From contig JAJFGG010000016.1 in the NCBI GenBank assembly GCA_021776235.1, positions 62,001 through 126,000 of the forward strand: a DNA stretch of 64,000 nucleotides, written 5' to 3'. The notes below the pieces were generated by a model. It did not search any database. It was not told where the DNA came from and saw only the letters and a list, made by a program, of their open reading frames with translations. The stretch is from Alphaproteobacteria bacterium (GTDB lineage: Bacteria; Pseudomonadota; Alphaproteobacteria; GCA-2731375). The stretch's first letter is position 1; each line of letters opens with the position of its first letter. The translations under genes and the position numbers were made by a program. Positions 5,190-45,192 of the stretch are shown in pieces.

Positions 5190-5265
5190 TGGTACGCCCG
5201 ACTGGGATCGAACCAGTGACCTACTGATTAAAAGTCAGTTGCTCTACCAACTGAGCTACGGGCGC
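5190..5265 (-). tRNA. tRNA-Lys (anticodon TTT)
   Basis: The minus strand gives a full cloverleaf: acceptor GCGCCCG pairing with CGGGCGT, D-arm AGCTCAGTTGGTAGAGC, anticodon arm with CTTTTAA in the loop, and T-arm with GGTTCGATCCC. The discriminator is A and CCA is encoded. It lies downstream of tgt on the same strand. Its 3' end faces the decayed mobile-element islet, the usual side for integration at a tRNA, but no duplicated tRNA 3' end was seen. Confidence 0.97.
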
Positions 5266-13380: not shown

Positions 13381-13390
13381 GGCCTTGCCG

Positions 13391-19621: not shown

Positions 19622-22285
19622 ATGAGCATGGATGAACACGCACCATCATCGCCGCCGCCGTCGGAAGCCATGTCTGAGGCACTTTGGCGCCAGGCCAATG
19701 ATCTGGCCGCGCAGGGGAAATTGCTGGACGCCGTTCCGCTGTACCTCGAAGTGTCCGATTTGTGGCCGGACCGGCCCATTGTCTGGCTCAATCTTGGCGT
19801 CGTGCTGGGCGGCCTGCATCGCCATGACGAGGCCAGTCAATGCCTACAACGGGCTCTGGAGATGGACCCGAACGATCCCCAGGCGCATTATCAATTGGGG
19901 CAGATGCGGGACCACCTTGGCCGACCCGACGCCGCCGCACAGAGCTTTCTGGCGGCAACTGAGTTGGACCCGGGCTTTCTTGATGCCTGGCAAGGCCTGG
20001 CCGATATATCCCTACAATGCGGACAAACAGAACTAGCCAAGGAATATCTAGGCGAGATTTTTCAGGTTGCGCCGGAGCATGCCGCAGGCAATTTTTTGCT
20101 GGGTAACTTGCTGCTTGGACAGGGCGACGACGGCGCCGCCGCGGAACATTTCGCCATCGCTTACAGGGCCACCGGCGATCCGGCCTGCGGCAATAATCTG
20201 GCCGGCGCGTTGGAGCGAATGGACAGAATTCCCGAAGCGATCGATCTGCTGCATGATCTGGTGCAGTCCCGGCCCGATTACAAATTGACCTGGAATACCC
20301 TTGGCGGCCTGCTGATGCGATGCAAACGTTATGCCAAGGCACGCGAAGCGCTGGCGCAGGCGCTGAAAATCGATGATGGATTCCATGCCGCCCGGCACGG
20401 CCTCGCCCGTTGCCTGGTTAAGATTCAGGACCTGCTGGGCGCCCAGGAACAATTGCGGCGCCTGTTGCAGGAAACACCCGATGACGTCTCGGTCATGAAG
20501 GACTACGCCGTGGTGCTGGAGCGCCTGGGCGAGTTTGACCAGGCACTGGCGCTGCGCGAACAGGCCATGGCACTAGCCCCAGGCGATGCCCGGCTGACAG
20601 CGGATCATGCCAACCTGCTGCAGGCCCTGCGCCGGCCGGAAGATGGTGAACCTTTTGCCCGGCGCGCCCTTGCCCTGGATGAAAACGAACTGCGGGCCCA
20701 TATGGCGCTGATCTCCATCTGTAGCGAGAGCAAACGCATGCTGGAAGCCCATGAACATTTGGCGGCAGTCATGGCATCGGGCACGCAGGATGTTCTAATC
20801 CTGAATTCGGTCGGCTCGCTGTTTGAACAGTGGAAGGAAGCCGGCAAGGCCATTGCCGTCTATGAGCACGTACTGGAAATCGATGCCACCGACGCCAACG
20901 CCGCGATCCGGATATTCGATTTGAAGATGGGGATGTGCGATTGGACCGACTATGACAAGACCTGTCAGGACCAGGTCGATCAGATCAATGCCGGCTGCGC
21001 CGAGGATGCGGAGGACGGCAGCCGGTTCGATGTCTTCAACCTACAAGCCCTGCCCGTCAGTTACGAATTCATCGGCACGGCCGCCCGACACGCCGCGAAA
21101 CAGATTGCCGCGGACGCCCGTTCGAATTTGGATGCGCCGCCTCTGGTGCACGCCCAACCGCGCGGGGGCAGAATTCGCCTGGGCTATGCCCTGGGTTATA
21201 CCTGGTTCCACAGTCTGCCACTGGTTATGAAGGAAGTCGTCGAACGTCACGATCGCGACCGCTTCGAAGTCTTTGGCTATTCTGTCCGTCCCACCGATGG
21301 CGGCGAGTTCAATGATCGCTACAGAGCCGCATTCGATCATTTTCGGGATATTCCCGGCACGGCGCCGTACCTGGCGGCGCAGATGATCAACGAAGATGCC
21401 ATTGATGTTCTGATCGATGTCACCGGCCTGACGTCGATCAATTGCATGCCGGTCAGTTCATTCCGCCCGGCGCCGGTACTGATGCACGGCTATGGCTATT
21501 CCATCACCACCGGAGCTGACTATATCGACTACCTGATTACCGATCGTACCTATATCCCCGAGGAATGGGAGGCCGTGGGTCCGGAGAAATTGCTTTATTT
21601 ACCAAATACCTTCCTGCCGACCAAGCGGCCCGACGGCATGGGCGCTCCCGTTACCCGGGCAGAAATGGATTTGCCCGATGACGCGGTTGTCTTTTGCAAT
21701 TTCAATCACCCCTGCAAATTCGAACCGAAAATTTTCACGGCCTGGATGGAAATCATGACCCGGGTGCCGGGCAGCGTGCTCTGGTTCGGCGCCTGGATGC
21801 ATGACACCCAGGCAAATCTGCGCCGGGAAGCCGCGAAGCGCGGCATCGACGGCAACCGCCTGATCTTTAGCAAGATTGTCAAACACGATGAACATCTGGC
21901 CCGCCTGCAACTGGCGGACCTGGCGCTCGACAACCTGCACCATGGCGGCGGCATTACTTCGGTCGATGCCTTATGGGTTGGGCTGCCTCTGCTAACGATC
22001 CTTGGCGACAAGCCAGGCGCCCGTCTGGGCGCGACATTGTGCAATGCCGCCGGCGTGCCTGAAATGGTGGTACGGGATCTGCCGGCCTACGTTGACCGAG
22101 CCGTCGCCCTGGCCCATGCCCCGGAGCAGTTGCAGGATCTAAGCCAGCGCCTGATCGAAGGGCGCGACAGCCGGCCGTTGTTCGATAATGAGCGTTATTG
22201 CCGCAATCTGGATAAGGCCATTGAAGCCGCCTGGAACAATCACCTGGCTGGCCGGCCGCCGCAACGCATCGAAATTATCGAATAG
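19622..22285 (+). CDS. TPR-GT41 glycosyltransferase (SPINDLY/OGT-like)
   Basis: An 887-residue cytosolic protein. Residues about 10-430 are tandem TPR units (for example QYHYQLGQMRDHLGRPDAA-like repeats). A linker is followed by a GT41 catalytic region from about residue 510: RIRLGYALGYTWFHSLP, VLMHGYGYSITTGADYIDYLI, VVFCNFNHPCKFEP and LDNLHHGGGITSVDALWVGLP. The last segment aligns with the OGT sugar-nucleotide motif LDxxxxNGHTT, but His is Gly777 and Thr is Ile, so the donor may not be UDP-GlcNAc. Architecture resembles bacterial flagellin glycosyltransferases such as Caulobacter FlmG. Its place at the head of a sugar region that ends beside flgL/flgK supports, but does not prove, flagellin glycosylation. 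Confidence 0.85.
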   Translation: MSMDEHAPSSPPPSEAMSEALWRQANDLAAQGKLLDAVPLYLEVSDLWPDRPIVWLNLGVVLGGLHRHDEASQCLQRALEMDPNDPQAHYQLGQMRDHLGRPDAAAQSFLAATELDPGFLDAWQGLADISLQCGQTELAKEYLGEIFQVAPEHAAGNFLLGNLLLGQGDDGAAAEHFAIAYRATGDPACGNNLAGALERMDRIPEAIDLLHDLVQSRPDYKLTWNTLGGLLMRCKRYAKAREALAQALKIDDGFHAARHGLARCLVKIQDLLGAQEQLRRLLQETPDDVSVMKDYAVVLERLGEFDQALALREQAMALAPGDARLTADHANLLQALRRPEDGEPFARRALALDENELRAHMALISICSESKRMLEAHEHLAAVMASGTQDVLILNSVGSLFEQWKEAGKAIAVYEHVLEIDATDANAAIRIFDLKMGMCDWTDYDKTCQDQVDQINAGCAEDAEDGSRFDVFNLQALPVSYEFIGTAARHAAKQIAADARSNLDAPPLVHAQPRGGRIRLGYALGYTWFHSLPLVMKEVVERHDRDRFEVFGYSVRPTDGGEFNDRYRAAFDHFRDIPGTAPYLAAQMINEDAIDVLIDVTGLTSINCMPVSSFRPAPVLMHGYGYSITTGADYIDYLITDRTYIPEEWEAVGPEKLLYLPNTFLPTKRPDGMGAPVTRAEMDLPDDAVVFCNFNHPCKFEPKIFTAWMEIMTRVPGSVLWFGAWMHDTQANLRREAAKRGIDGNRLIFSKIVKHDEHLARLQLADLALDNLHHGGGITSVDALWVGLPLLTILGDKPGARLGATLCNAAGVPEMVVRDLPAYVDRAVALAHAPEQLQDLSQRLIEGRDSRPLFDNERYCRNLDKAIEAAWNNHLAGRPPQRIEIIE

Positions 22286-23543: not shown

Positions 23544-24462
23544 AGCTTAAGCTCACAAACATCATAATAAGATCATCGCTGATACCGGGCATCGTATAGT
23601 CGAGGATCAGTTGGTTCTGGTACGGTCTCTTAAAGGCGTATGTGCATTAAAGCCAGAAAAAGATTAATGCTGGCTGAACATGCCGCGAATTGAGGCTAAT
23701 TCAGTAGATCACCCGCCATAGCGGGGCATTCGCGTCGCTGTTTCCGGCAGGGCATTCCACGTCTTCAGGCGGAATCGGTTGCCACCATTTTGCGCTCAGG
23801 AATTGTCTGAGTGGCGGTCCCGACCAGTTCGACAACCAGGTCTTTGTCTTCAGTCCCGGTCCAGGCAAAACTACTGCTGCGGGCCATTTGGTTTAGACGG
23901 CGGCCCGATGACTGCGGGTGTTTGACGCGAGCCCTTCAGGCCAATTTTATGATTAACAAATTCTTGAGAGTTATCCCGATACAATCTTGATCGTGGTTGG
24001 AGATTGGTTGGCAGCCTAAGCAAATAAGCTTCTGCCACGGTGCCTTTACAGGATTATTACCGGCTGCGGCAGACGAAATTCGGCAGAGTAATCGTGCGCC
24101 TCAATGCATCAATTTTGTTTTTCGGGTCACGTCGCGACAATTTGGGATTTAGTAAGAATCATGTTCAACGCAGCGGGCCTTATCGGACCTTGGAAACGTC
24201 GGACACGAAGGTTGGCGGGCACGGGCGCTTGGCAGCCTGGAATAATGTGCAAACGACCAACCTTTTGCGTCCCGGACAGGACGGCCGGCAAAGCCGAATG
24301 GAAGGATAAAAACCCACTGGCGGCAATTCATGGAATTGTCGGGCGCCGGGAAGATTATAAGATTGATCAGCACTTCAACCGCTTGGGCGCGACTTCCAAT
24401 ATTGATGGCTTCCTGTACCGCAAGCCCATCGAAGAGCTGGCGGGAGAATTGTTGCCCGCGTC
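23544..24462. other. 0.9-kb gap before the heptose operon; possible decayed gene
   Basis: No intact gene was recognised. A minus-strand frame ending near 23711 reads GLKTKTWLSNWSGPPLRQF and LSAKWWQPIPPEDVECP before a stop. It looks protein-like but has no convincing start and is interrupted upstream, so it may be a fossil. On plus, a frame reading IDQHFNRLGATSNIDGF ends in an ATGA overlap with the next gene, which could be the tail of a lost upstream gene. A CtrA-like sequence with one mismatch (TTAA-N7-TTGA at 23953) was noted. The operon promoter must lie here but was not identified. Confidence 0.45.
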
Positions 24463-25719
24463 ATGACACAGTCAAAATCAATGTTTCAGAGCAGTGGCGG
24501 CCAGCAGCCGGAGCGACCCCGTCAGGCGGTGATCCTGGCCGGCGGCAGAGGAACCCGTTTGGCGCCGATCAGCGATTTGCGCCCCAAACCGTTGATCGAG
24601 TTCCATGGCCAGCCCTTCGTCGAGTACCTGCTTGAGATGCTTTCGCGGGAAGGTTTCGAGCGCGTGGTCCTGCTGACCGGTTACCGGGGGGAACAACTAG
24701 AAGCAAGACTGGGCAGTGGCGCCAAATGGGGTCTGGAAATCGCATATCATTGGTCGCAAGAAAAATTCGACACCGGCGCCAGGGTGCGGGCGGCCAGTGA
24801 CCTGCTGGATGATACTTTCTTGCTGCTCTATTGCGACAACTACTGGCCGTTGCCATTCGAACAGCTTTGGACGCGTTATTGCGCCATGGAGGCCGAGGCG
24901 CTGGTGACGGTCTACCGGAACTCGGACGATTACACGCGCTCGAATCTCATTGTCGATGCGACAGGTAAGGTTGTCCTCTACGACAAGACCCGAAGCGCAA
25001 AAAATCTGCAAGGGGTCGACATCGGGTTCTTGATCTTGCGCAAACATTTGCTGCAGCTGCTGCCGCCAGGCAATATTAATCTGGAGCGCGAGTTGTTCCC
25101 GAAATTGATTGCGCAAGGCCAATTGACCGCCTTTGTCAGCGAACATCGGTACTACAGCGTTGGCGACATTCCGCGCCTGCCAGCGACAGAAAAATTTTTG
25201 CGGTTTGAACCAACGATCCTCCTGGACCGTGACGGCGTGCTTAACAAAAAGCGTCCAAAGGGGGAATACGTAACGGATTGGCGCGAATGGGAATGGCAGG
25301 ACCATGCCCTTTCCGCACTGCGAAAGCTGACGCAGGCGGGCTATCGTATCGTTGTCGTCACCAATCAGGCCGGCATCGCGCGCGGGATGCTGGATGCCGA
25401 CGCACTGGAAGACATCCATTCCCGCATGACAGCGGATGCCGAGGAATTTGGCGCGAAAATCGCGTGCGTCTACTATTGCCCGCATGGCTGGGACGACGGC
25501 TGCGACTGCCGTAAACCGCGGCCAGGCATGCTGCTGCAGGCGCAGAAGGATTTCTGCCTGGACCTTTCACGTTGCTGGTTTCTGGGAGACGACGAGCGTG
25601 ATGGCATGGCGGCGAAGGCGGCGGGATGCCGGTTTGGCCTGATCGATGAGAACACCGACCTGGCCGGCATGGTTGATCATATTCTCGCCCGCCGGGCCAA
25701 CATTTTACAATTTGGATAA
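24463..25719 (+). CDS. Fused sugar-phosphate nucleotidyltransferase (HddC-like) and HAD phosphatase (GmhB-like)
   Basis: A 418-residue two-domain protein. Residues about 21-240 are a nucleotidyltransferase with AVILAGGRGTRLAP (22-35), RPKPLIEF (40-47) and the metal-binding CDN (124-126). Residues about 250-415 are a HAD-IIIA phosphatase with LLDRDGVLNK (253-262), VTNQAG (298-303), the zinc site Cys338-x-His340-x5-Cys346-x-Cys348, and FLGDDERDG. The pair matches the two last steps of GDP-D-glycero-alpha-D-manno-heptose synthesis: removal of the 7-phosphate (GmhB) and guanylylation (HddC). The kinase HddA lies two genes on; no GmhA isomerase is in the window. It overlaps an open frame upstream by ATGA. 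Confidence 0.88.
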   Translation: MTQSKSMFQSSGGQQPERPRQAVILAGGRGTRLAPISDLRPKPLIEFHGQPFVEYLLEMLSREGFERVVLLTGYRGEQLEARLGSGAKWGLEIAYHWSQEKFDTGARVRAASDLLDDTFLLLYCDNYWPLPFEQLWTRYCAMEAEALVTVYRNSDDYTRSNLIVDATGKVVLYDKTRSAKNLQGVDIGFLILRKHLLQLLPPGNINLERELFPKLIAQGQLTAFVSEHRYYSVGDIPRLPATEKFLRFEPTILLDRDGVLNKKRPKGEYVTDWREWEWQDHALSALRKLTQAGYRIVVVTNQAGIARGMLDADALEDIHSRMTADAEEFGAKIACVYYCPHGWDDGCDCRKPRPGMLLQAQKDFCLDLSRCWFLGDDERDGMAAKAAGCRFGLIDENTDLAGMVDHILARRANILQFG

Positions 25720-25736
25720 TTTGCGGAGGCAGTGGT

Positions 25737-26723
25737 TTGGCAGAACGGGTCTTGATAACTGGAATTACCGGTTTCGTCGGCTCTCACTTGGCGGACTATG
25801 CCTTGTCACGCGGGGTGGAGGTCTATGGCGTGCAACGTTGGCATCTTTCGCGGCGCGACAACGTTCGCCATTTCCAGGATCAGGTGTCATGGGTTGACTG
25901 CGACATTACCGACCCGATCGCGGCGCGGGAGATGTTGGATAAAGTCGCGCCGGAACGGATATTCCACTGTGCCGCCGAAAGTTTCGTTTCGCCTTCGTGG
26001 CAGAACCCGACCCGTTATATGAACGTCAATTATAATGGCACACTGAATATCCTGGATGCCATGAAACAGGCCGGCAGCACCGCGCCCTTTCATATTCCGG
26101 GCTCGGGCGAAGAATATGGCGAAATCCGACCGGAAGAACTGCCCATAACCGAAGAAACGGTCCTGCGCCCGGTCAATCCGTATGCGGTATCGAAAGTAGC
26201 CCAGGACTTGATCGGTTATGTCTATCACAAATCCTATGGCTTGAATGTAATCCGAACCCGCACCTTCAATCATGAAGGACCGCGGCGGCAAAAGGTCTTC
26301 GGCATTCCCTGGTATGCCTATCAGATTGCCCGCGCAGAAGCCGGCAAAGGCCCGCGGGAGTTGCGGGTCGGTCATCTGGACGACCGGCGAAATTTCACCC
26401 ATGTGCGCGATATTGTTGAAGCCTACTGGCTGGCCACGGAACATTGCCTGCCCGGCGAGTTGTATTTAATCGGCGCCGAAGCGGAGAGCCACGTTCATAC
26501 CTTCCGCGATTGCCTGGACCAGTTGATCGATATGTCGAACGAAAGCGGTTTCAGTTACGAAACCGTCGCCGAATTTGTCCGGCCGACGCAGGTGCCATAC
26601 CTGATTGCCGATACAGCGAAGTTCCGGGCCGTCTGTGACTGGCAGCCAAAAGTCGCATTTGAGCAGATCCTTTCGGACACCCTGGACTATTGGCGCGAGA
26701 AAATCGCCACAAATTTGGATTAG
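25737..26723 (+). CDS. GDP-mannose/GDP-heptose 4,6-dehydratase-like SDR
   Basis: A 328-residue extended SDR. It has LITGITGFVGSHLADYAL for NAD(P) binding, HCAAESFVSPSW, NYNGTLNILDAM, YAVSK (YxxxK), NPYAVSKVAQDL and RTRTFNHEGPRR, which together resemble GDP-mannose 4,6-dehydratase. In the dehydratase signature the usual STSE or STDE becomes GSGEEYG: Ser replaces the catalytic Thr, Gly the next residue, and Glu is kept. With HddA and HddC beside it, the likely substrate is GDP-D-glycero-manno-heptose, giving a 4-keto-6-deoxy product. The start is TTG with GGAGG seven bases upstream. Confidence 0.85.
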   Translation: MAERVLITGITGFVGSHLADYALSRGVEVYGVQRWHLSRRDNVRHFQDQVSWVDCDITDPIAAREMLDKVAPERIFHCAAESFVSPSWQNPTRYMNVNYNGTLNILDAMKQAGSTAPFHIPGSGEEYGEIRPEELPITEETVLRPVNPYAVSKVAQDLIGYVYHKSYGLNVIRTRTFNHEGPRRQKVFGIPWYAYQIARAEAGKGPRELRVGHLDDRRNFTHVRDIVEAYWLATEHCLPGELYLIGAEAESHVHTFRDCLDQLIDMSNESGFSYETVAEFVRPTQVPYLIADTAKFRAVCDWQPKVAFEQILSDTLDYWREKIATNLD

Positions 26724-26735
26724 GCGAGAAAGCAC

Positions 26736-27743
26736 GTGGATAGAGACGACGACGACATATTCATGACGCGCACGCCATTGCGGATAAGCTTCAATGGCGG
26801 CGGCACCGATTTGCCGAGTTTTTTCGAGCATGAAGATGGCCTGGTGGTTTCAACAACAATCAACAAGTACATCTATGTCACGGTGAAGCGTCTTAACCCG
26901 GTTTATCAGGAACAATACAGACTGAATTATTCGACCACCGAGAGTGTCGCTTCGATCGACGAGATCAGCAACGATATCGCCCGCGAGTGTTTACGGCTCG
27001 TCGCCGTGGACGGACCGCTCTACATAGGAACCTTTGCAGACCTGCCGGCGAATTCAGGTCTCGGTTCGTCATCCAGTTTTGCCGTTGGGTTGCTCAAGGC
27101 TCTACACCTGATGCGTGGCGAAAAGGTTTCGAACGGTCAGCTGGCGGAGGAAGCCGCGCATGTGGAAATCGATGTGCTGGGCCACCCGATTGGGAAACAG
27201 GACCAGTATGCCGCCGTCTTCGGCGGGCTGAACGGCATTGAGTTCCGCACGGACGGCAGCGTTTCGATCGAACCGTTGACGATGCGGTGCGAATTCCTGA
27301 ATAGGTTGTTTGATCAAACGCGCCTCTACTGGACCGGAATTACCAGGAGCTCATCTGAAGTCTTAAACGAACAAAACGCGAGATCTTCGGAAAATCGCGC
27401 CGCGCTGCAGTGCATGCGCGAACAGGCTGTGTTGCTTCGCAGCAAAATGCTCAAAGGCCTGGACCCGGCCGCCTTTGGCGCTCTGCTTGATGGCAACTGG
27501 CAGGTAAAACGAAAGCTGGCCAGCCGCATTTCGAACGGCGAAATCGACCGCCTGTACGATCTGGCCATTAAGGCAGGCGCATACGGCGGCAAACTATGCG
27601 GCGCCGGCGGCGGCGGTTTCCTGATGTTCCTGGTGCCACCGGACGGCGCTGATGCGGTTCGCCAGGCGCTTGGAAATCTGAGTGAAGTGACCGTCTCTTA
27701 TGAACCGCACGGCTCGATCCAAATGCTGCCTCGTTCGAATTAA
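26736..27743 (+). CDS. hddA: D-glycero-alpha-D-manno-heptose 7-phosphate kinase (GHMP family)
   Basis: Phosphorylates heptose 7-phosphate at C1 in the alpha series. The GHMP fold is shown by TRTPLRISFNGGGTDLPSFF (11-30), the phosphate-binding loop LPANSGLGSSSSFAVG (103-118), and KLCGAGGGGFLMFL at the C-terminus. The opening NGGGTDLP is characteristic of HddA-type kinases. The start GTG has GGCGAGA upstream. ATG at 26763 fits the family N-terminus but lacks a binding site. Located between the dehydratase and an RmlC-like gene, which fixes the heptose reading of the operon. Confidence 0.9.
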   Translation: MDRDDDDIFMTRTPLRISFNGGGTDLPSFFEHEDGLVVSTTINKYIYVTVKRLNPVYQEQYRLNYSTTESVASIDEISNDIARECLRLVAVDGPLYIGTFADLPANSGLGSSSSFAVGLLKALHLMRGEKVSNGQLAEEAAHVEIDVLGHPIGKQDQYAAVFGGLNGIEFRTDGSVSIEPLTMRCEFLNRLFDQTRLYWTGITRSSSEVLNEQNARSSENRAALQCMREQAVLLRSKMLKGLDPAAFGALLDGNWQVKRKLASRISNGEIDRLYDLAIKAGAYGGKLCGAGGGGFLMFLVPPDGADAVRQALGNLSEVTVSYEPHGSIQMLPRSN

Positions 27744-27759
27744 CCACGGAGTGAACGGG

Positions 27760-28317
27760 ATGCCACGGCAAAGCGCAATAGAAGGTGTTGTTGAAACAAG
27801 TAACGTGCATCTTGACGATGAACGGGGCTCCCTCGACAAGTTCTTCCACGCGCAGGTGCAGGATACCTGCTCTTCGGCGCTTACCTGGAAACAGGTTTTG
27901 CGCTCCACAACCAAGCAGGCCGGTGTTCTGCGCGGGCTGCAAGCCTTGAAGGCGCCCTATACCGAAGGCAAATTGATCGTTCCACTGAACGGCGAGATGT
28001 TTTGGGTAAGCGTCGACATGCGTGCCGGCAGCAACACGTTTGGCTGCTGGACATCGAAGCTGTTACGCCCCGACAACGGAAAAGGCCTGTTCGTGGCACG
28101 CGGGTTTTTCCATGGTTGTCTGTCGATGACCGACAATGTGGAACTGCTGATCATGGCCGACAACGATCATTCCGATGACCACAATGTCGGCATCAAATGG
28201 GACGACCCCGATCTTGCGATCGACTGGCCATTGCAGGACCGGCAGCCCATTTTGTCGCTAGCACACATGAAATATCCCAGCTTTGCGGACTTTCAACACA
28301 ATCATCATGGTTTGTAG
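27760..28317 (+). CDS. RmlC-family cupin, catalytic His replaced
   Basis: A 185-residue member of the dTDP-4-dehydrorhamnose 3,5-epimerase family by layout: ERGSLDKFF, GVLRGLQALKAPYTEGKLI, GEMFWVSVDMRAGSNTFG, FVARGFFHGCLSMTD and IKWDDPDLAIDWPL. In active epimerases the fourth stretch is RGLHYQ, and its histidine is the general base. Here it is Gln (RGLQAL). The usual YKCTDYY region is also changed to MADNDHS. It may therefore be non-catalytic, or act by a different mechanism on a heptose derivative. ATG chosen because GGAG precedes it. Confidence 0.83.
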   Translation: MPRQSAIEGVVETSNVHLDDERGSLDKFFHAQVQDTCSSALTWKQVLRSTTKQAGVLRGLQALKAPYTEGKLIVPLNGEMFWVSVDMRAGSNTFGCWTSKLLRPDNGKGLFVARGFFHGCLSMTDNVELLIMADNDHSDDHNVGIKWDDPDLAIDWPLQDRQPILSLAHMKYPSFADFQHNHHGL

Positions 28318-28352
28318 CCGTGGCTTGTAACGATGTCTGACGAGGCAAAGCA

Positions 28353-29102
28353 GTGAACCAGGAGCAAAGATATCTGTTCGATACCCATGGCTATATTGTC
28401 TTACGGGGTGTGCTTGACACGGCACTGGTCGCCACTCTGAACGGGCATATGGACCAACTGGAAGCATTGGCCGAGGACGAATTTCCCGAAGGCGTCACTT
28501 TGGGTAAACCACGCAGCGAAAATACCCTGTTCATCTCCAATATCGTCGAAGCCGATCCGGTCTTTTTCAATTTGATCGATCTGCCGCCGGTTATCGACAT
28601 CGTCCGCGAAACGTCGTCGGGCCTGTTCCGCCTGAACCATACCAATTCAATCACCCACGGCAGAGGCGCCTATACCTACGTTCATATGGGCGGTGCGCCG
28701 CTGCATCCGAAAGCGACCTATGCCGTGGTGGACGGAAAAATCTTTTCATTGCTGACCAAGGCAGTCTTTCCCTTGGCCAATCAGAAGACCGACGATGGCT
28801 GCTTTGCCGTCATCCCCGGTTCACACAAGTCAAATTTTGAACGCCCCAGTGACGATCACCCGGATGCCAATCCTTATCTGGTGCCGGTTGAAGCCGAGCC
28901 GGGTGACTGCATTGTGTTTACCGAAGCGCTGGCCCACGGCAGCCTGGTCAACCAATCGGGGCGGGCGCGCAGAACCCTGTTCTATTGTTACAGCGTTGGA
29001 TACATGCCGGATTGGGGCAATTTGGGTCTTTCGTTTAGCGAAGGATTTCTCGAACGGCTCTCGCCCGAACAGGCCGAGATCGTGCGCTTAAAGGCCAATT
29101 AG
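28353..29102 (+). CDS. Phytanoyl-CoA dioxygenase (PhyH) family protein
   Basis: A 249-residue 2-oxoglutarate/Fe(II)-type oxygenase-like protein. It begins FDTHGYIVLRGVLD, the usual PhyH entry. It has YVHMGGAPLHP in the place of the HxD iron-binding strand, GCFAVIPGSHKSNF (typical hydroxylase G-S-H-K segment) and a distal ALAHGSLVNQSGRARRTLFY with the second His and the 2-oxoglutarate Arg. The HxD motif is not clean, so metal binding is unproved. In this operon it could hydroxylate a sugar or a lipid carrier group. Start is GTG with GAGG eight bases upstream. Confidence 0.85.
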   Translation: MNQEQRYLFDTHGYIVLRGVLDTALVATLNGHMDQLEALAEDEFPEGVTLGKPRSENTLFISNIVEADPVFFNLIDLPPVIDIVRETSSGLFRLNHTNSITHGRGAYTYVHMGGAPLHPKATYAVVDGKIFSLLTKAVFPLANQKTDDGCFAVIPGSHKSNFERPSDDHPDANPYLVPVEAEPGDCIVFTEALAHGSLVNQSGRARRTLFYCYSVGYMPDWGNLGLSFSEGFLERLSPEQAEIVRLKAN

Positions 29103-29147
29103 TCGGACATATGGGCAAAAACAGAAATTTCGAAAAGAGAGTAACGA

Positions 29148-29597
29148 ATGATTGACGGGGTAAAAGTCGTACCGCTGCGGAAAATTCCCGATGAACGCGG
29201 CGCCGTGTTCCATTTTCTGAAGAAAACCGATCCGCATTTCACGGAGTTTGGCGAAGTCTATTTTTCCTGCGGTTATCCGGGCGTTATCAAGGCCTGGCAC
29301 ATCCATAAGGAAATGACCCTGAACAACGTTTGTGTCGTCGGGATGATCAAACTGGTCATTTACGATTGCCGTGACAATTCGCCCACAAAAGGTGAACTCA
29401 TGGAAATCCATATTGGCGAGCAGAACTATGCTCTTGTGCAAATTCCGCCACTGGTGGCCAATGGTTACAAGGCATTCGGCGACAAGATGGCGATCATTTC
29501 GAACTGCGCCAGTATGGTCCATGATCCCGACGAGCTGATCTATATAGATCCGCTCAACAACGATATTCCCTATGACTGGGCGCAGAAACATGGCTGA
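29148..29597 (+). CDS. Short RmlC-like cupin (sugar 3,5-epimerase or isomerase)
   Basis: A 149-residue single cupin domain: VKVVPLRKIPDERGAVFHFL at the start, then CGYPGVIKAWHIHKEMTLNN and VQIPPLVANGYKAFG. Unlike its neighbour two genes upstream it keeps histidines (AWHIH) where RmlC-type enzymes have RGLHY. It is a likely epimerase for a 4-keto nucleotide sugar made by the dehydratase. The end overlaps the next methyltransferase gene by eight bases. Confidence 0.82.
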   Translation: MIDGVKVVPLRKIPDERGAVFHFLKKTDPHFTEFGEVYFSCGYPGVIKAWHIHKEMTLNNVCVVGMIKLVIYDCRDNSPTKGELMEIHIGEQNYALVQIPPLVANGYKAFGDKMAIISNCASMVHDPDELIYIDPLNNDIPYDWAQKHG

Positions 29598-30867
29598 CAG
29601 CACACAACCGATCGGACCCTGCATCGTTTGTGCGGGCAGCAACATTCAGGAATTTCTGGATCTTGGCGAGACGGCTTACGCGAATGCCTTTCCGACGGCG
29701 GAAGACATCCGCCAAGGGGGCGAAGAAAAGTTCCCGCTAACTGTCGGGTACTGCCCGGACTGCCATCACGTACAATTAACCCAACACGCCACACCATCGG
29801 ATTTGTTCTCCCATTACCTGTATATGTCGTCGGCCTCGGCGGTTTTGGTCGGGCATCTTAAGGGTCTGGCAAAGACGGTGGCCGCCCGCTACCACGAGCA
29901 GGCGCAAGGCCTGGTACTCGATGTCGGATGCAACGACGGCACGCTGCTGTCCGGCTTCATGGAAGCGGGGGTTGGTCGCGTACTGGGCATCGACCCTGCC
30001 GCAAACCTGGCACCTGTCGCCCAGGACAAGGGCGTTGAGGTCATCACTGACTTTTTCAATGCGGAAACGGCGCGAAAACTGAAAAACGACGGCCGCGAGG
30101 CACAAATCATAACGCTTACCAACAGCTTTCCACATATCCCCGACCTTTCCGGTCTTTGCCGCGGCTTCGATGAATTGCTCAGCGATGACGGCGTGATCGT
30201 ATTGGAGGCGCATTATCTTGGTGACCTTCTCGACATGCTGGCCTTCGACACGGTTTATCACGAGCATGTGTCGTACTGGTCCCTTGGTCCAGCCTGCCGT
30301 TTATTCGCAGCCCACGGCTTCGAGGTGGTCGATGTGGAGAGGCTGCCCATCCATCATGGCCAGTTAAGGCTTTGGGTGCGCCGCGCCGGTAAGGAAGCAG
30401 TCAGTGAACGTGTCGCCACTTTGCTAGAGGCGGAAAAGGCACGTGGATTTGGACGCCTTGAGACTTTTCAGGCGTTTGCCGGCGCCATCGACCAGATCAG
30501 GAGTTCTGTTACCGATTGGTTGGCGCAAGCCACGGCGGAGGGAAAAACGGTAGCCGGCTATGGCGCGCCGGCCAAGGGGAACACACTGCTCAGTTACCTG
30601 CGGGTCAGCCCTGAGGATCTGAAGTACATTGCCGATCTGAACCATCTGAAGCAGGGCCGTTTTACGCCTGGAACACATATCCCGGTGGTTTCCCCGGACC
30701 TGTTGCGGCAAGATCCACCGGACTATTTGCTAATTCTTGCCTGGAATTTTGTGGAGGAAATCGCCGCGCAACAGCAGGCCTTTGCCGATACGGGCGGTCG
30801 TTTTTTTGTGCCGGTTCCATCTCTGCGCGAGATTACCGGCGCTGCAACCGCAATACCGGCGGCATAA
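29590..30867 (+). CDS. Sugar C-methyltransferase with N-terminal zinc domain
   Basis: A 425-residue protein of the class that methylates a carbon of 4-keto nucleotide sugars (NovU/TylC3-type). The N-terminus has zinc cysteines Cys11-x2-Cys14 and Cys55-x2-Cys58 (GYCPDCHHVQL). The SAM-binding motif is VLDVGCNDGTLL (109-120). HHGQLRLWV and AGYGAPAKGNTLL in the C-terminal domain are also characteristic. It completes the operon and predicts a branched (C-methyl) deoxy sugar. A perfect palindrome immediately follows its stop. Confidence 0.9.
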   Translation: MADSTQPIGPCIVCAGSNIQEFLDLGETAYANAFPTAEDIRQGGEEKFPLTVGYCPDCHHVQLTQHATPSDLFSHYLYMSSASAVLVGHLKGLAKTVAARYHEQAQGLVLDVGCNDGTLLSGFMEAGVGRVLGIDPAANLAPVAQDKGVEVITDFFNAETARKLKNDGREAQIITLTNSFPHIPDLSGLCRGFDELLSDDGVIVLEAHYLGDLLDMLAFDTVYHEHVSYWSLGPACRLFAAHGFEVVDVERLPIHHGQLRLWVRRAGKEAVSERVATLLEAEKARGFGRLETFQAFAGAIDQIRSSVTDWLAQATAEGKTVAGYGAPAKGNTLLSYLRVSPEDLKYIADLNHLKQGRFTPGTHIPVVSPDLLRQDPPDYLLILAWNFVEEIAAQQQAFADTGGRFFVPVPSLREITGAATAIPAA

Positions 30868-30893
30868 GGGGTCTTCTCAGCTGAGAAGACCCC
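30868..30893. terminator. Perfect 26-base palindrome between convergent operons
   Basis: Two 13-base arms, GGGGTCTTCTCAG and CTGAGAAGACCCC, abut with no spacer, starting right after the C-methyltransferase stop. A tail rich in T (CATTCATTTTG) follows about 10 bases later on plus. Position between two long head-on operons suggests a bidirectional terminator. A zero-length loop is unusual, because at least three bases must be unpaired in RNA. Confidence 0.6.
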
Positions 30894-30921: not shown

Positions 30922-32811
30922 CTAGCCTGCCGCTGCCGCCAGGGAACCGGGCAGTTCGCCGATCATCAAGCGTGGAATGTCTTTGTTCTTGAAATCTTGC
31001 GCATGCAGATCAGCGACGGTCAGATCGAACGCCTCCAGCCGTTCCTTCCAGTATGAAGAGCGAGATAGCTGACCTTCGAGACGTGTGATCGTCGCCGGCG
31101 CGATGGATCCCTCCAATTTATGCTCGAGATAGGCCAGAAAATAGAGTGCAAATCCGTGCTCGGGCGAAATGACATCGCAAAGATTGTTCAGATGGTGCCG
31201 CAGTTGCTGCAACTTCTGAATTCGATTTTCACCAAATAGACGATGAAAATTCAGGTGATAATTCATGAAGAACCAGATGTCGTCGATCTGTTCGCGTGTT
31301 GGAATGGCGTCCAACGGTATCGCTTCAAAGGCTTCCGCAAATCCAACGGTGGCCAGGCGTTGGCCGGTTTCGAGCTCATTTTGCTTGCCAAAGCCGCCCG
31401 ACATAAAGCGCACTTCAGAAGTTTCCGTTGCCTCGATCAGACCTTGGGCGATCATGGCGTCATAGATGGGCGTGTTCGGCAGCGGCTGTAGAGCCGTAAT
31501 GCCGCACCAATCCATGTCCATTTGTCTGGCAACGTTGATTGTATCCCCGATCATGGCCAGCGTTTCGTTGGGAAACCCCAACATCAAAAAGACCCGGGCA
31601 TGGATGCTCGGATAGCGCTTCAATGTTTCCGCCGCTCGCAGAAATACATCGACGGTTCCGGGCTTCTTGACCTGCCGTAGGATTTGAGGATTGCCGGATT
31701 CCATTCCGATATTCAGCGCGATGCAACCGCTCTCGGCCATGGCATGCACGGTTTGATCGTCGCAAGACGACGCAATGACGCCGTTCGTTGCATCCCAGGT
31801 CATCTTCAGGCCACGCTTGATCTTGCCGTTGAATAGCTGCAGGGCCCGATCCTGATCCTTCAGCAAATCGTCATCGAGCCAGACAATATGATTGATGCCC
31901 TGGACTTCCTCGAGATACTGCAATTCGTCCAAAACACTATCGACATCGCGGTGACGCACACCACGACCGTTGAAATTTCGAACACTGCAGAAGGTGCACT
32001 GCGCCCGGCAACCGCGATTGGACAGCACGGTTGCGAAACGGCTGCCCTCTGGTTTCAAAGCGTAAAAATTACCGATGGTGCCGTATTCGGACAGTCTGCC
32101 GATGTCGATCAGATCATAGGCGGGAAGAACACTGATGTCCTGCCGGTCCGGGGCCGCCGGTTGCGCGATCGAATGCCGTTCGTCACCATCGGACAGGATA
32201 ACCTGGGCCAGGGCACTTGCCGGCTTGGCGCCACGGACCACATCGCAAAACAATTCAATTGCAACATCGGCTTCCTTCAGAAAGGCAATATCAATGCCCT
32301 TAATGTCATCAAGGATGCGTTCGGGGTTGTTGGAGACGTGAACGCCTCCCACCGCAACCGGTACATCAAAAGCTGCTGCATAGTCACAAACACGGCTGAA
32401 CGACAGATGCGTCATTGTGAACATGCAGGTGACGCCAATGAGATCGGGCGCGAAGTCCTCAATTCCCGCCTTCAACTCCTGTCGCCATATGGCATCGAAA
32501 TCAAAACTGCCGTCGTCGTACTGGTCGCGGCACGACTCCAAAATACTGTTGTTGAGGTTGCAAATTCTGACCTCAATATTTCGGCGACGAAGGTGTTCGG
32601 CGATGAGCAATATGCCATAGGGCGGGTAGTTGGCGTAGCGGCCACGCAAGGCGGTTTCTGGTTGAAACAGCTCGCTATTGCCGTCGGGCGGATTAACCAG
32701 GAGAACGCGATCTAAAGCGCCTTCCGGGAACAACCGCCGCAAAGCGCTTTCGACTTTAATCAAATCTGGGCTGTCTTGACCGCGCGTCGCAACCCTAGCC
32801 GCATGTGCCAT
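30922..32811 (-). CDS. B12-binding-type radical SAM protein
   Basis: A 629-residue protein. Residues about 35-190 form an N-terminal Rossmann-like domain typical of B12-binding radical SAM enzymes (RVLLVNPPDG, then GVTCMFTMTH and PVAVGGVHVSNNPE), but no DxHxxG cobalamin motif was seen. The radical SAM domain follows with Cys268-x3-Cys272-x2-Cys275 (GCRAQCTFC), IVWLDDDLL, and IGMESGNPQILRQVKKPG. A 200-residue C-terminal extension is unrecognised. Members modify unactivated carbons (methylation, ring changes, P-methylation). The ATG has ACAGGAG upstream; it overlaps the SDR gene by 17 bases. It is last in the minus-strand sugar array. Confidence 0.9.
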   Translation of the reverse strand: MAHAARVATRGQDSPDLIKVESALRRLFPEGALDRVLLVNPPDGNSELFQPETALRGRYANYPPYGILLIAEHLRRRNIEVRICNLNNSILESCRDQYDDGSFDFDAIWRQELKAGIEDFAPDLIGVTCMFTMTHLSFSRVCDYAAAFDVPVAVGGVHVSNNPERILDDIKGIDIAFLKEADVAIELFCDVVRGAKPASALAQVILSDGDERHSIAQPAAPDRQDISVLPAYDLIDIGRLSEYGTIGNFYALKPEGSRFATVLSNRGCRAQCTFCSVRNFNGRGVRHRDVDSVLDELQYLEEVQGINHIVWLDDDLLKDQDRALQLFNGKIKRGLKMTWDATNGVIASSCDDQTVHAMAESGCIALNIGMESGNPQILRQVKKPGTVDVFLRAAETLKRYPSIHARVFLMLGFPNETLAMIGDTINVARQMDMDWCGITALQPLPNTPIYDAMIAQGLIEATETSEVRFMSGGFGKQNELETGQRLATVGFAEAFEAIPLDAIPTREQIDDIWFFMNYHLNFHRLFGENRIQKLQQLRHHLNNLCDVISPEHGFALYFLAYLEHKLEGSIAPATITRLEGQLSRSSYWKERLEAFDLTVADLHAQDFKNKDIPRLMIGELPGSLAAAAG

Positions 32812-33811
32812 GCTGCACTCCTGTCGTGATTTCGCCAGGCGCCGGGCTGATCTGGGCGTCCAAATTGGCGTGTAGGGTCAAGCAGCGCGAAAGTTCGTCA
32901 ATGATGACCTCAGATGATGGGCGTATGGGCTCGAAACCCGGCATCTCCATGGCCCGATTGCTGAGCTGTCGCGGCCAATCCGGATTATCTTCATCGATAT
33001 CGGCGGCATCGCTAACCGTGCAGCGCAAGCCGAGGCGCTTGCAGACCAACGCCAAGATACGCCTTTTGGAAATCGCTTCAGGACTGACAAGGTCGATCGC
33101 CCGATTGAAGGCCGGTGTATTCAGTGCGTAACCTACGCAGTCGGCAATTTCGGGCGGCCCGATATAGTCCCTTAGAAAATTCTGCCTGTTGATTTGCAGG
33201 GGCTTTCCCGAAATTAAGCTGTTCGCAATTTCAGAAAGAAAGTAGCCGCCTGCAATGGGGAGTTCCTTGCTGAGATAACCGAAGACCCGAACGTCGAGAA
33301 TTGAACGCGAGACCAGGGCGCGATGCTTGGCTTCGGCGACGATTTTCGCTAATGGGTAACAGGGGGTCTTCTCGGATTGATTAACAGGAATTGTCAATGC
33401 GTCACTGTTTTCAGCGGGACGATTATAGGCGTTGCCGTAAATCGCACCGGTACTAAGGAAGAGCAATTTACAGCGCGGCTGCTGGTTGAGATAAGCCAAT
33501 GTCATGTTGTCAACGGCTTCCGAGGCATAAAGGATTTCAGCCCCCAACCCGCGAATGACCTTGGGATCGCCCGGCAACGCGGCGTTCACGACGAGATCAT
33601 AGGCGTCGCGACCAAAGTCACTGGTATGGCTGATTTCAGCCGCTCGTTCGCCCTTTTCAGCAACGCCCAAGAGTGTTCGCAGGCGCCCGGGCCGTTCGGT
33701 GAAGAGATCCAGCCGGCAATCGGCATCCAGTGCCTCGGCCAAGCCGCGGCCAATTTGACCCCCGGCCCCGAGAATCGCAATTCTGGCGCCTGAAATGCCC
33801 CGATCTGTCAT
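32795..33811 (-). CDS. NAD-dependent epimerase/dehydratase-like SDR
   Basis: About 338 residues. The N-terminus has IAILGAGGQIGRGLAEAL (GxxGxxG). FLSTGAIYGNAYNRP supplies the Ser region, and YPLAK gives the YxxxK pair. YIGPPEIADCVGYAL is typical of SDR proteins acting on nucleotide sugars. The ATG at 33811 is chosen because GAGG lies eight bases upstream and the fold starts there. It lies between two radical-SAM genes. Substrate unknown; 4-keto reductase or epimerase in the array's pathway. Confidence 0.84.
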   Translation of the reverse strand: MTDRGISGARIAILGAGGQIGRGLAEALDADCRLDLFTERPGRLRTLLGVAEKGERAAEISHTSDFGRDAYDLVVNAALPGDPKVIRGLGAEILYASEAVDNMTLAYLNQQPRCKLLFLSTGAIYGNAYNRPAENSDALTIPVNQSEKTPCYPLAKIVAEAKHRALVSRSILDVRVFGYLSKELPIAGGYFLSEIANSLISGKPLQINRQNFLRDYIGPPEIADCVGYALNTPAFNRAIDLVSPEAISKRRILALVCKRLGLRCTVSDAADIDEDNPDWPRQLSNRAMEMPGFEPIRPSSEVIIDELSRCLTLHANLDAQISPAPGEITTGVQHGTCG

Positions 33812-33933
33812 CTCTGCCTCAAAAATTCCCGGAAAACGACCCTTGCAGCCGGTATCATAGGCATCAAACATGCTCAAATTATTAACTCTTTCGGATCATT
33901 TCCCGGGCATTTTGCGGGCCCGCCGGGACAGCC

Positions 33934-34899
33934 CTATCCTTGAACGCGGCCAGCCTCCGTTGCCAAGACGGTACAGTGGCCACACAGTTTGTGTTGGCTC
34001 TTTTTCCCGGCCGAATGGAGTTCGCGCAATTTGTTTAGCGGTTTGGCATTGAAGAGGTCGATGGGGTCCGTATCAAAAGCATTTCCGAAGCCATATTTAC
34101 CTTCGAGCAGATCTTCAAAACACAAAGCGACCTTGCCGTTGGCCAAGATCACAAGCTTTTCGAATAGATGGTGACACGGCTGTGCGGCCAACGGATCGTT
34201 GTTTTCAATGCGGGTGGCGTCGCCGCCCGTTTGCCCTGACCAGTCGTGCATGTGGTAACGAAGCACAAGATCGTTTCTTTTCTCGTTGATCCTGGTTTTC
34301 CAGAAGGCGCGGTATGCTTCCCATTCCTGGGCATTGTGTTTCTGTTGGATGAAGCGGATGACAAACCGGGTTTTATGGTTGCCGGCATCGCGTTCGCGAA
34401 TTGCCGCCTCAACGTTGCTGACAACGCGGTCGAAATTTGTTCGTGGGCGTGCGGTTTCGTGCACGGCCCTAGTTGCGCCGTCGATACTGACGAGGATTGT
34501 GTCAACGCCACCGGCAAGAAGTTGCCTGCGCCATTCAAGATCCAGCAAATGCGCGTTGGTCGATACGGCCACGCCTGTGAAGCCTCGATTTTTGAGCAAC
34601 GCAACCCGTTCTGGCAAGAATCGATCGAGCAGGGGTTCCCCCAATCCGAACAAATCAAACATCGTAATCTGATCTCGATAAGGTACCAGGCGGTCTATGA
34701 GGGCTTCGAATTTCTCCATCGACATCACGCCTTTGTCCCGTTCCGTCGGATGTTCGATCAGGCACATCGGGCAACGGGCATTGCAGCCGAAGACTGTTTC
34801 GATCACGACCCGGGACGGGATCAGGCGTTCGCCATGCCGATCGGTCATGTCCATGGCGCCTTGCCGCTTGTCGCCGATAGCTGTGGATGATGCCGCCAT
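33934..34899 (-). CDS. Radical SAM/SPASM-type protein
   Basis: About 321 residues with the radical SAM cluster motif Cys39-x3-Cys43-x2-Cys46 (FGCNARCPMC). FDLFGLGEPLLDRF follows (GGE-like segment as GLGEP), then VSTNAHLL and ILVSIDGATRAVHE. C-terminal cysteines (CHHLFEKLVILANGKVALCFED and LCGHC) resemble a shortened SPASM cluster site. ATG at 34899 is chosen (AAAGG upstream), since upstream codons run into the neighbouring gene. It follows the E1-beta gene by 32 bases. Family members modify sugars, peptides or cofactors. Confidence 0.88.
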   Translation of the reverse strand: MAASSTAIGDKRQGAMDMTDRHGERLIPSRVVIETVFGCNARCPMCLIEHPTERDKGVMSMEKFEALIDRLVPYRDQITMFDLFGLGEPLLDRFLPERVALLKNRGFTGVAVSTNAHLLDLEWRRQLLAGGVDTILVSIDGATRAVHETARPRTNFDRVVSNVEAAIRERDAGNHKTRFVIRFIQQKHNAQEWEAYRAFWKTRINEKRNDLVLRYHMHDWSGQTGGDATRIENNDPLAAQPCHHLFEKLVILANGKVALCFEDLLEGKYGFGNAFDTDPIDLFNAKPLNKLRELHSAGKKSQHKLCGHCTVLATEAGRVQG

Positions 34900-34931
34900 G
34901 TTCAGCCTTTGGATTAGAGGGCAAGGCGCGC

Positions 34932-35873
34932 CTAAGGCGCGTCGAGGAAGGCGCGGATTTCGTTCATGTCGGGCTGGAACCGGTCTGGATTGGGACACAG
35001 GGTCCAATCATCATAGGACATGACCTTAACCCGTGTGGCCCCCAGCATTTCGGATACTGCGCTCACCAAGCCGAAATACGGTTTATTGCGACTCTTCGCG
35101 TCATCAAGAATAAGCAACCGTCCCGCCGTCATGGCTTCTTCGCGAACATTATCGCCGACGGTAATATGCGCGGCGTTTACGCCCATCAGGCCGCATGAAT
35201 AACCCTCAGCCGTCAACTGTCCTTGGATCTCGGCCGCCTGGGGAAACGCCATATTGTAGGCGCAGACCGTGAGGTCCCGGCCGGATTCATAAACGATGCT
35301 GTCGGCGTGCTCGGTTATATGCTTTGGCGCCAGTGTCGAACCCGGAACCGGTTCGCGGAACAAACGTTCGCTGCAGGTGATAATGCGGAATCCCGGCGCG
35401 GCGAAGTGCCTGGCCAACACGGCGGGTATGTCGTGACGATTTGTGACGGTATACCCTTCGATATCCGCAATCGAGCACAGGTCATAAAGCCCGTTGAATG
35501 AACTTTGCGGCCCCGAATATCCGCCATCAACGGTAATTGCCAGGATCGTGAACGAGGCTCCCAGGTTTTCCCCGCGCAGGATATTCCAGGTATTGACCAG
35601 TTGATCGACACCAAGCAGCAAGAAATCCAACTGCTTCATGCAATAGGCGCTGCTGATACCCTTTAGCATCAGGCCGAAGCCAACACCGGCCAGTGTGTTT
35701 TCGCTGTTTTGGGTATTGATGGCACGGTGGTCGTCATCCAGGTTCAGGTTGCGGGTCAGCCCGCCGAGGCATGAACCCGCGTCCACATTCTGGCCGTAAA
35801 GAACAAATCGGTCCTGTGCTGCGATGGTTTTGCGCAGGCAGGCGTTCACGAATGACACGTAGCTTTCGCTCAT
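34932..35873 (-). CDS. TPP-dependent E1-beta / transketolase-like subunit
   Basis: A 313-residue homologue of the beta subunit of 2-oxoacid dehydrogenase E1 or of the transketolase pyrimidine-binding half. The TPP-activating glutamate is Glu58 in QNSENTLAGVGFGLMLKG. ITVDGGYSGPQSSFN then corresponds to the E1-beta phosphate-loop region. The C-terminal Rossmann domain (VCAYNMAFPQAAEIQGQL, RLLILDDAKSRNK) is complete. The start overlaps the alpha-subunit stop (ATGACATGAG arrangement), so the two form one translationally coupled enzyme. No E2 or E3 lies nearby. It may perform carboligation or transketolation on a sugar precursor instead of oxidative decarboxylation. Confidence 0.86.
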   Translation of the reverse strand: MSESYVSFVNACLRKTIAAQDRFVLYGQNVDAGSCLGGLTRNLNLDDDHRAINTQNSENTLAGVGFGLMLKGISSAYCMKQLDFLLLGVDQLVNTWNILRGENLGASFTILAITVDGGYSGPQSSFNGLYDLCSIADIEGYTVTNRHDIPAVLARHFAAPGFRIITCSERLFREPVPGSTLAPKHITEHADSIVYESGRDLTVCAYNMAFPQAAEIQGQLTAEGYSCGLMGVNAAHITVGDNVREEAMTAGRLLILDDAKSRNKPYFGLVSAVSEMLGATRVKVMSYDDWTLCPNPDRFQPDMNEIRAFLDAP

Positions 35874-36805
35874 GTCATTTCCTCGCGCAATGCGGTCTGT
35901 ATTCTTATCGCTTCTGCGGCAAGGGTCGCAGGCTCGACCCAGTTTTTCAGCTGTTCGACGGGGTCCTTGTCCAAAGGGTCGAGCGCCGGCCAATCCGGTA
36001 TCTCGAGATGCCGCGCCGGGCCCTGATGATAGTTGACTGTTCTGCCATCAGGCGCCCGTTCATCGTGGACGGTGAACCAGCCCAGGGTATCCAAGGACAC
36101 CTCCAAAAGCACCGGTGTGGCCCCGGCGGAAGCCGCCAGGCGCGCGTCTTTGACGGCATCGAGGCAGGCAAAAACATCCGCACCGTCTGTACGGCGATAG
36201 GGGACAGCAAAACTGTTGCAGAATGCTTCGAGATCGATGGCGCAGCGGCGTTCGGAAACATGCGTTGCCAATGACCATTCGTTGACTTCGGCAACGATCA
36301 CGCAGGGTGCCGCCCGGCTTTTCATAAACTGCAGCGACTCGTAGAACGCACCCTCTTCAAGGGCGCCATCGCCTGTGGTGACAAAGCAAACACTGCCGTC
36401 GCCCAGGACCGCGGCACCCAACGCAACGCCGGCGGCGACCGGTAGGTTGTTCGCCAGGATTGACGAGCTGTAAGGCAACCCCTTTGCGGGATTTGACAGA
36501 TTCATTGAACCCAGGCGGCCGCCGTCCAGGCCTTCATTGCGCAAATGATAGGCCTGATACTCGCTCGCGAAATTGTCGGCGCGGGTGAGGTTGTAGTGAA
36601 TATTTCGATGGGTCAGGAGCAGGCTGTCACCCGACGCCATCGCCAGATCGACGGCCACCGCAATGGCCTCGTGCCCCAGCGCAAGATGAAGCGGGATCTT
36701 GAGCCCGTTGGTGTCCATGGTCTCGTTGATAAGGAGTTGCGCCAGGCGGAGCCGCAATACCTCCCGCGCGATATCTAGGCGGCTGTGGGCATTTGCACGG
36801 CACAT
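35870..36805 (-). CDS. TPP-dependent E1-alpha / transketolase-like subunit
   Basis: A 311-residue thiamine-diphosphate-binding subunit. LHLALGHEAIAVAVDLAM and LTHRNIHYNL resemble E1-alpha. The TPP-Mg motif is GDGALEEGAFYESL (about 145-158), with the Asn ligand in VAEVNEWSLAT near residue 175 replacing the usual VENNGYAIST. The ATG at 36805 begins right after the upstream SDR stop (TGAA-ATG). A longer version starting at 36838 would overlap that gene. It partners with the next gene. Together they resemble acetoin/pyruvate-dehydrogenase E1 but sit among sugar genes. Confidence 0.86.
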   Translation of the reverse strand: MCRANAHSRLDIAREVLRLRLAQLLINETMDTNGLKIPLHLALGHEAIAVAVDLAMASGDSLLLTHRNIHYNLTRADNFASEYQAYHLRNEGLDGGRLGSMNLSNPAKGLPYSSSILANNLPVAAGVALGAAVLGDGSVCFVTTGDGALEEGAFYESLQFMKSRAAPCVIVAEVNEWSLATHVSERRCAIDLEAFCNSFAVPYRRTDGADVFACLDAVKDARLAASAGATPVLLEVSLDTLGWFTVHDERAPDGRTVNYHQGPARHLEIPDWPALDPLDKDPVEQLKNWVEPATLAAEAIRIQTALREEMT

Positions 36806-36806
36806 T

Positions 36807-45168: not shown

Positions 45169-45192
45169 GACATCATTTCCTAAAAAGCGCCG

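Follow-up and report, generated by a model that had tools for sequence, protein, structure and literature searches.

A recurrent gene cassette predicted to make a C-methylated GDP-heptose, beside a putative branch-forming module, in an alphaproteobacterial genome

We analysed a 64,000-nucleotide stretch of contig JAJFGG010000016.1 from an Alphaproteobacteria bacterium (positions 62,001 to 126,000; hereafter the window, whose own numbering is used throughout), in particular a plus-strand operon of seven genes at 24463-30867 and the minus-strand genes that face it. On balance, we lean towards reading this region as a nucleotide-sugar island, in which a route to GDP-3-C-methyl-6-deoxy-heptose stands next to a separate module for a two-carbon branch (the E1 module), the glycan likely being flagellar. 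Gene order, conservation, motifs and co-occurrence were observed; from these we infer every substrate, the stereochemistry and the target. The original prediction had all seven genes make a C-methylated deoxy-heptose in one series; conserved synteny and active-site residues speak for its core, while the single seven-gene series is not supported. The operon itself was confirmed: all seven open reading frames (ORFs) are open, tightly spaced or overlapping and in the order first proposed, and their Pfam domains are, in order, NTP_transferase with a HAD domain; GDP_Man_Dehyd; GHMP kinase N and C; dTDP_sugar_isom; PhyH; dTDP_sugar_isom; and Methyltransf_13/23/14.

24463..25719, plus strand: HddC-GmhB, a predicted nucleotidyltransferase fused to a HAD heptose-bisphosphate phosphatase
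25737..26723, plus strand: SDR1, a GMD/RMD-like extended short-chain dehydrogenase/reductase (SDR), predicted GDP-heptose 4,6-dehydratase
26736..27743, plus strand: HddA-like GHMP kinase, predicted heptose 7-phosphate 1-kinase
27760..28317, plus strand: RmlC-like cupin (dTDP_sugar_isom), assigned to the E1 module
28353..29102, plus strand: PhyH-type protein (PhyH), assigned to the E1 module
29148..29597, plus strand: cupin2, a small RmlC-fold cupin of the heptose cassette, nearest PDB entry 3ejk
29572..30867, plus strand: C-methyltransferase of the TylC3/TcaB9 family, YHEH from residue 229
30868..30893, no strand: perfect palindrome of 26 nt, read from the sequence, between the convergent gene sets

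A start of the RmlC gene at 27760 is more likely than one at 27700. The palindrome, which was absent from the output of a separate scan, lies immediately 3′ of the last stop codon; it is possibly a two-way terminator, and this would fit an operon end facing a convergent minus-strand cluster.

A search of genome contigs with SDR1 gave 34 loci (numbered L), and the 29 with an SDR1 score of at least 350 bits were used for counts; L039-L043, below 350 bits, were left out, and L044-L046 also stand outside this set. Neighbourhoods extended up to 9 kb per side, several contigs being shorter. Cultured carriers named in the records include Magnetospirillum sp. SS-4 (L013) and Jiella sp. LLJ827 (L015), of which the second lacks the E1 pair within the neighbourhood covered. 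HddA was present at 25/29 loci, HddC-GmhB at 24/29 and both at 21/29, while an SIS (GmhA-like) gene was seen at 16/29 and cupin2 at 11/29. Sixteen of the 29 had a C-methyltransferase of any type (the window's type in 7/29), and E1a and E1b, the paired genes of the E1 module, occurred together in seven. The fullest order, on one strand in L016, is clSDR, SDR36, RmlC, E1a, E1b, rSAM33, HddC-GmhB, SDR1, cupin2, HddA, KR and C-methyltransferase. Since the association recurs in unrelated phyla (records named Alphaproteobacteria, Magnetococcales, Elusimicrobia, Omnitrophota, Planctomycetota and others), it is more than chance. The conserved cassette is HddC-GmhB, the GMD-like SDR1, HddA, cupin2 and the C-methyltransferase. 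The counts and the order in L016 point most naturally to a chain that leads from heptose 7-phosphate to GDP-heptose; in the window, too, kinase, 7-phosphatase and nucleotidyltransferase adjoin an SDR of the GMD family.

In the route that we propose, a GmhA from another part of the genome would first isomerise sedoheptulose 7-phosphate, HddA would phosphorylate C1, and the GmhB domain would then take off the 7-phosphate. SDR1 would remove water to give 4-keto-6-deoxy-heptose, which cupin2 would epimerise or position; the C-methyltransferase would methylate C3, and a C4-ketoreductase, probably SDR40, would complete GDP-3-C-methyl-6-deoxy-heptose. HddC-GmhB carries GGRGTRL at residue 27, RPKPLI at 40, DRDGVLN at 255 and CDCRKP at 347, and HddA shows a clear relationship to heptose kinases of solved structure, its top PDB match being the heptose phosphate kinase 3k85. 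In SDR1 the residues S123, E125, Y149 and K153 and the NHEGPRR motif at 178 are invariant in 11 aligned members. That the window holds no GmhA, as originally noted, was not contradicted by our scans, in which part of the window's ORFs were run against the family library. The genome-wide check for gmhA that had been proposed was run and returned two SIS proteins, one at L001 and one in L002; the former is a candidate GmhA encoded elsewhere. At L066:4789-8119 (G000:C119) an SIS protein and an SDR accompany a heptose kinase/nucleotidyltransferase whose domains stand in the reverse order, an arrangement reminiscent of the one described for Coxiella CBU0678 (PMC5843353).

The C-methyltransferase showed full-length similarity to its closest PDB chains, which are sugar C-3-methyltransferases and TcaB9 (297-283 bits). 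The YxEH motif, which has a catalytic role in TylC3-type C-methyltransferases, is kept in the window protein, in 19 aligned homologues and in TcaB9, and it occurs together with Methyltransf_13 and Methyltransf_14, the combination typical of the TylC3 type. At L033, L034, L036 and L038 a C-methyltransferase of another type (31-34% identical) follows SDR1, which suggests a different kind of C-methyl heptoses. The window's genome has another sugar cluster with a C-methyltransferase (L065:4235-8912, G000:C84), in which RmlC-like and SDR40-like genes also lie.

The original statement that the operon has no dedicated ketoreductase was likewise uncontradicted by these scans, and the likely extra SDR lies outside the operon:

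40381..41304, minus strand: SDR40, candidate C4-ketoreductase, with Leu at the catalytic-Tyr position of SDRs

A KR-clade SDR stands between HddA and the C-methyltransferase in 6/29 loci, as well as in L044 and L045, and 11 other loci of the 29 have a protein of the SDR40 clade. One or the other is thus found at 17/29 loci, never both, and at 14 of the 16 with a C-methyltransferase. The window's genome gave no KR-clade orthologue, its best match reaching 165 bits vs. 425-511 within the clade, and the C-methyltransferase cluster of L065 ends in an SDR40 relative (37% identity). Because of the clade distribution and this relative, SDR40 is probably the finishing C4-ketoreductase and the counterpart of the extra SDR of related loci. 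Its missing Tyr is a real objection: in place of YxxxK it reads LGQGK, with the Lys kept and the Tyr lost. MtmC is a bifunctional C-methyltransferase/ketoreductase, and such an enzyme was also considered for the last step. SDR43, tried as ketoreductase, had the top KR-profile score of the window's SDRs (149 bits), but groups with another clade and was rejected.

The putative branch-forming genes lie on the minus strand:

30922..32811, minus strand: B12-binding radical S-adenosylmethionine (SAM) protein, E1 module
32795..33877, minus strand: SDR32, weak Epimerase-family match
33934..35007, minus strand: rSAM33, radical SAM/SPASM protein
34932..35993, minus strand: E1b, beta-like subunit of a thiamine pyrophosphate (TPP)-dependent pair, start probably near 35873
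35870..36838, minus strand: E1a, alpha-like subunit, TPP motif GDG (residue 156) ... NE
36807..37736, minus strand: SDR36, extended SDR of the E1 module

In E1-type pairs GDG is the TPP motif and the conserved Glu is catalytic. Here the alpha and beta genes are adjacent and carry both features, as expected of an AviB1/AviB2-type pair; GDG is kept in 9/9 E1a and the Glu is invariant in 7/7 E1b. Two scans made with no heptose-gene anchor, one with the window protein over 385 genomes of the class and one with a profile over 398 genomes of the phylum, each found E1b in two genomes. Both include the window's genome, giving three genomes in total, each with the heptose cassette alongside. A match in G448 was counted as the genome of L016 (identical KR protein; L064 is a repeat) and not as a new locus; in L016/L064 the heptose and E1 sets form one co-directional run. 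In L010, L030 and L044 a PhyH orthologue follows E1b immediately or at a distance of no more than about 15 bases, and RmlC orthologues adjoin E1a in L010, L016 and L044. Because these orthologues travel with E1a/E1b, two of the seven operon genes were assigned to the E1 module: the RmlC-like cupin and PhyH probably belong with E1a/E1b (34.9-36.8 kb, minus strand), and the earlier view of both cupins and PhyH as steps of one short series is not supported. In the biosynthesis of eurekanate (AviB1/AviB2) and paulomycose, E1-type pairs are credited with attaching a two-carbon branch to 4-keto-sugars, in the eurekanate case alongside a non-heme iron enzyme (PMC4425429, PMC10338323). By analogy, RmlC and PhyH would work with the minus-strand SDR36, E1a, E1b and radical SAM proteins, the TPP enzyme having the role suggested for AviB1/AviB2, attachment of a two-carbon unit to a 4-keto sugar, and both sugars, or one doubly branched sugar, would enter a glycan.

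Both reassigned proteins have unusual active sites. The window RmlC reads RGLQ vs. [RK]G[LM]H in four orthologues of E1-bearing loci, with Gln for the catalytic His, and the catalytic Tyr (the acid) is absent in all five, so the His/Tyr pair of RmlC-type 3,5-epimerases is incomplete. Activity may persist despite this odd site, because Campylobacter jejuni enzymes mutated at these residues kept some C3 epimerisation of heptose (PMC7949155). In the PhyH protein (H111-x-G113, H195, R206/R207) the HxD motif reads HxG in 4/4 aligned orthologues (window, L010, L030, L044), which breaks the iron-binding HxD...H triad of Fe(II)/2OG PhyH dioxygenases; the HxG aligns with HRD of AndA. Plain hydroxylation, as the original prediction had it, is therefore doubtful. 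A halogenase might be suggested by weak TIGR01762 matches, but PDB 4xc9 has the same H-G-G. A search of the genome contigs with the PhyH protein found no relative, and its AlphaFold2 model (three sequences) was unusable, with a mean predicted local distance difference test score of 36.6. After PhyH in L044 a second oxygenase was seen (L044:6273-7025; TIGR04324 'sporadic carbohydrate cluster 2OG-Fe(II) oxygenase', 67 bits, cut-off 150), with relatives in L010 and L030 and no counterpart seen in the window; the term 'sporadic carbohydrate cluster' was not found in the open-licence literature searched.

The island is bounded on the right, from about 44.2 kb, by flgL, flgK, fliK, flgD, flgE, fliF, fliG and a motA-like gene, and from this position the glycan is probably attached to flagellin or hook proteins. 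Features of the surroundings are:

19622..22285, plus strand: tetratricopeptide-repeat protein with a GT41 domain, candidate protein glycosyltransferase, left boundary
24269..24463, plus strand: remnant of a sugar O-methyltransferase (last 65 residues, 80% identical to the gene of genome G006)
44215..47286, minus strand: flgL and flgK, start of the flagellar cluster

A complete relative of the remnant occupies the same place in G006. Farther left, 11773-14971 holds a pair of adjacent MFS transporters, alike in length and preceded by an HlyD-type protein, and a tRNA gene at 5193-5265 is the sole Rfam match in the window.

Several results weigh against the favoured reading. SDR1 scored 204 bits (profile 261) with the reductase 2pk3 and 162 (profile 224) with the GDP-heptose 4,6-dehydratase 7us5. 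The nucleotidyltransferase domain gave 104 bits with Rv-type mannose-1-P guanylyltransferase, 96 with MurU and 60 with HddC (NF049965, cut-off 300), and HddA gave 175 bits with NF049969 (cut-off 600), so that neither curated cut-off was reached. For the L001 SIS protein the best models are phosphoheptose isomerase, at 178 and 172 bits (TIGR00441), below cut-offs of 276 and 209. Cupin2 lacks the RmlC Tyr, and the catalytic Tyr is missing in 11/12 members of the SDR40 clade, the window's included, and in 4/8 KR members. The two modules stand mostly on opposite strands in the window, and the A2 profile of the phylum scan for E1b was built partly from loci first found via SDR1. For the flagellar target gene position is the sole ground, and the Flagellin_N proteins other than FlgL, that is the true flagellins, are encoded on other contigs. 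Of the earlier name 'HddC-GmhB fusion' the fusion stands; the domain does not appear specifically HddC-like and its HddC label is weak.

The scores of SDR1 bear directly on the first alternative, in which it is an RMD-type 4-ketoreductase or a C4-dehydrogenase and the heptose is not 6-deoxy, or the keto sugar comes from another dehydratase. SDR1 is about equally similar to a GDP-4-keto-sugar reductase and to a GDP-heptose 4,6-dehydratase; its best PDB match, 2pk3, is a GDP-6-deoxy-D-lyxo-4-hexulose reductase, and the active-site residues do not discriminate because 2pk3 keeps them too. In C. jejuni, moreover, GDP-heptose is the substrate of a C4-dehydrogenase as well as of a C4,6-dehydratase (PMC10680097). 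However, NHEGPRR and the RWxxSRxDN loop are nearer to the C. jejuni dehydratase 7us5 (HSGPRR, RWxxPMDN) than to RMD, which has NHIGPGQ and lacks the loop. SDR1 is also the most constant extended SDR of the loci, though these were found with it, and no chain named C4-dehydrogenase was among the 60 matches listed. We regard this alternative as unlikely. Slightly less probable still is the same chemistry on another sugar, whereby a GDP- or UDP-hexose, made by the kinase, the phosphatase and the nucleotidyltransferase, would become a virenose-like 3-C-methyl-6-deoxy-hexose. The nearness of the nucleotidyltransferase domain to mannose-1-P guanylyltransferase and MurU families suits it, as does virenose itself, a 3-C-methyl-6-deoxy-hexose with a proposed origin in GDP-mannose or TDP-glucose (PMC3539893), but with hexose 6-phosphates as substrates there would be little use for a C1 GHMP kinase or for a phosphatase of the GmhB type in a fusion, and the SIS genes counted above lie inside more than half of the loci (16/29).

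We give a similarly low chance to a bolder form of the favoured reading, in which one GDP-heptose would bear both modifications: 6-deoxy and C3-methyl, with a TPP-borne two-carbon extension at C4 (about ten carbons), cyclised, oxidised or even halogenated by the HxG-type PhyH and displayed on flagella. If true, this doubly decorated heptose would bring an orthosomycin-like logic to a protein glycan. Least likely is that all seven genes act on one heptose, with both cupins epimerising and PhyH hydroxylating, as their adjacency and shared direction and the PhyH fold family might suggest, since among the loci clear PhyH orthologues occur only with the E1 pair (L010, L030, L044), RmlC orthologues keep beside E1a, loci with a C-methyltransferase and no PhyH are common, and HxG replaces HxD.

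The closest known systems are the GDP-6-deoxy-heptose capsule pathways of C. jejuni, with GmhA, HddA, GmhB, HddC, a C4,6-dehydratase, a C3/C5-epimerase and a C4-reductase. The activation logic, the type of 4-keto-6-deoxy-heptose intermediate and the cupin and SDR steps are alike (PMC10680097, PMC10440746), whereas the window adds a C-methyltransferase and the E1 module and has GmhB fused to a nucleotidyltransferase; 'methyltransferase' and 'C-methyl' have 0 occurrences in the main text of PMC10680097. With the sugar 3-C-methyltransferases TylC3, TcaB9 and MtmC the window protein shares whole-length similarity, zinc-binding and C-terminal domains and YxEH, but its gene sits in a heptose cassette. 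The PDB relatives of this enzyme belong to natural-product sugars. AviB1/AviB2 (eurekanate), Pau11/Pau12 (paulomycose) and AviO2 likewise combine, inside a sugar cluster, a divergent E1 alpha/beta pair with an adjacent protein of the non-heme-iron type (PMC4425429, PMC10338323). They were likened by description and not by sequence, and radical SAM proteins and GDP-heptose genes set the window apart. The oxidase/hydroxylase of PDB 4xc9, which we take to be HygX, is the closest PDB match of the PhyH protein and has H-G-G at the HxD place, yet the similarity is weak (47 bits) and the substrate differs. The virenose locus of Coxiella burnetii resembles the island, again by description and not by sequence, in that heptose-type genes are close by and a C-methylated deoxy sugar forms part of a surface glycan (PMC5843353), but that sugar is thought to derive from GDP-mannose or TDP-glucose. 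In the open-licence literature searched, '3-C-methyl', 'heptose' and '6-deoxy' occurred together in four papers, which by title or abstract are three on Coxiella and a nuclear magnetic resonance review. Enzymatically characterised GDP-heptose modification is known chiefly from C. jejuni and a small number of further pathogens and comprises dehydration, epimerisation, C3-deoxygenation and reduction. The recurring cassette would add carbon-carbon branching to this list, and from it we would expect C-methyl heptoses, as a class, in glycans of cell surfaces or flagella.

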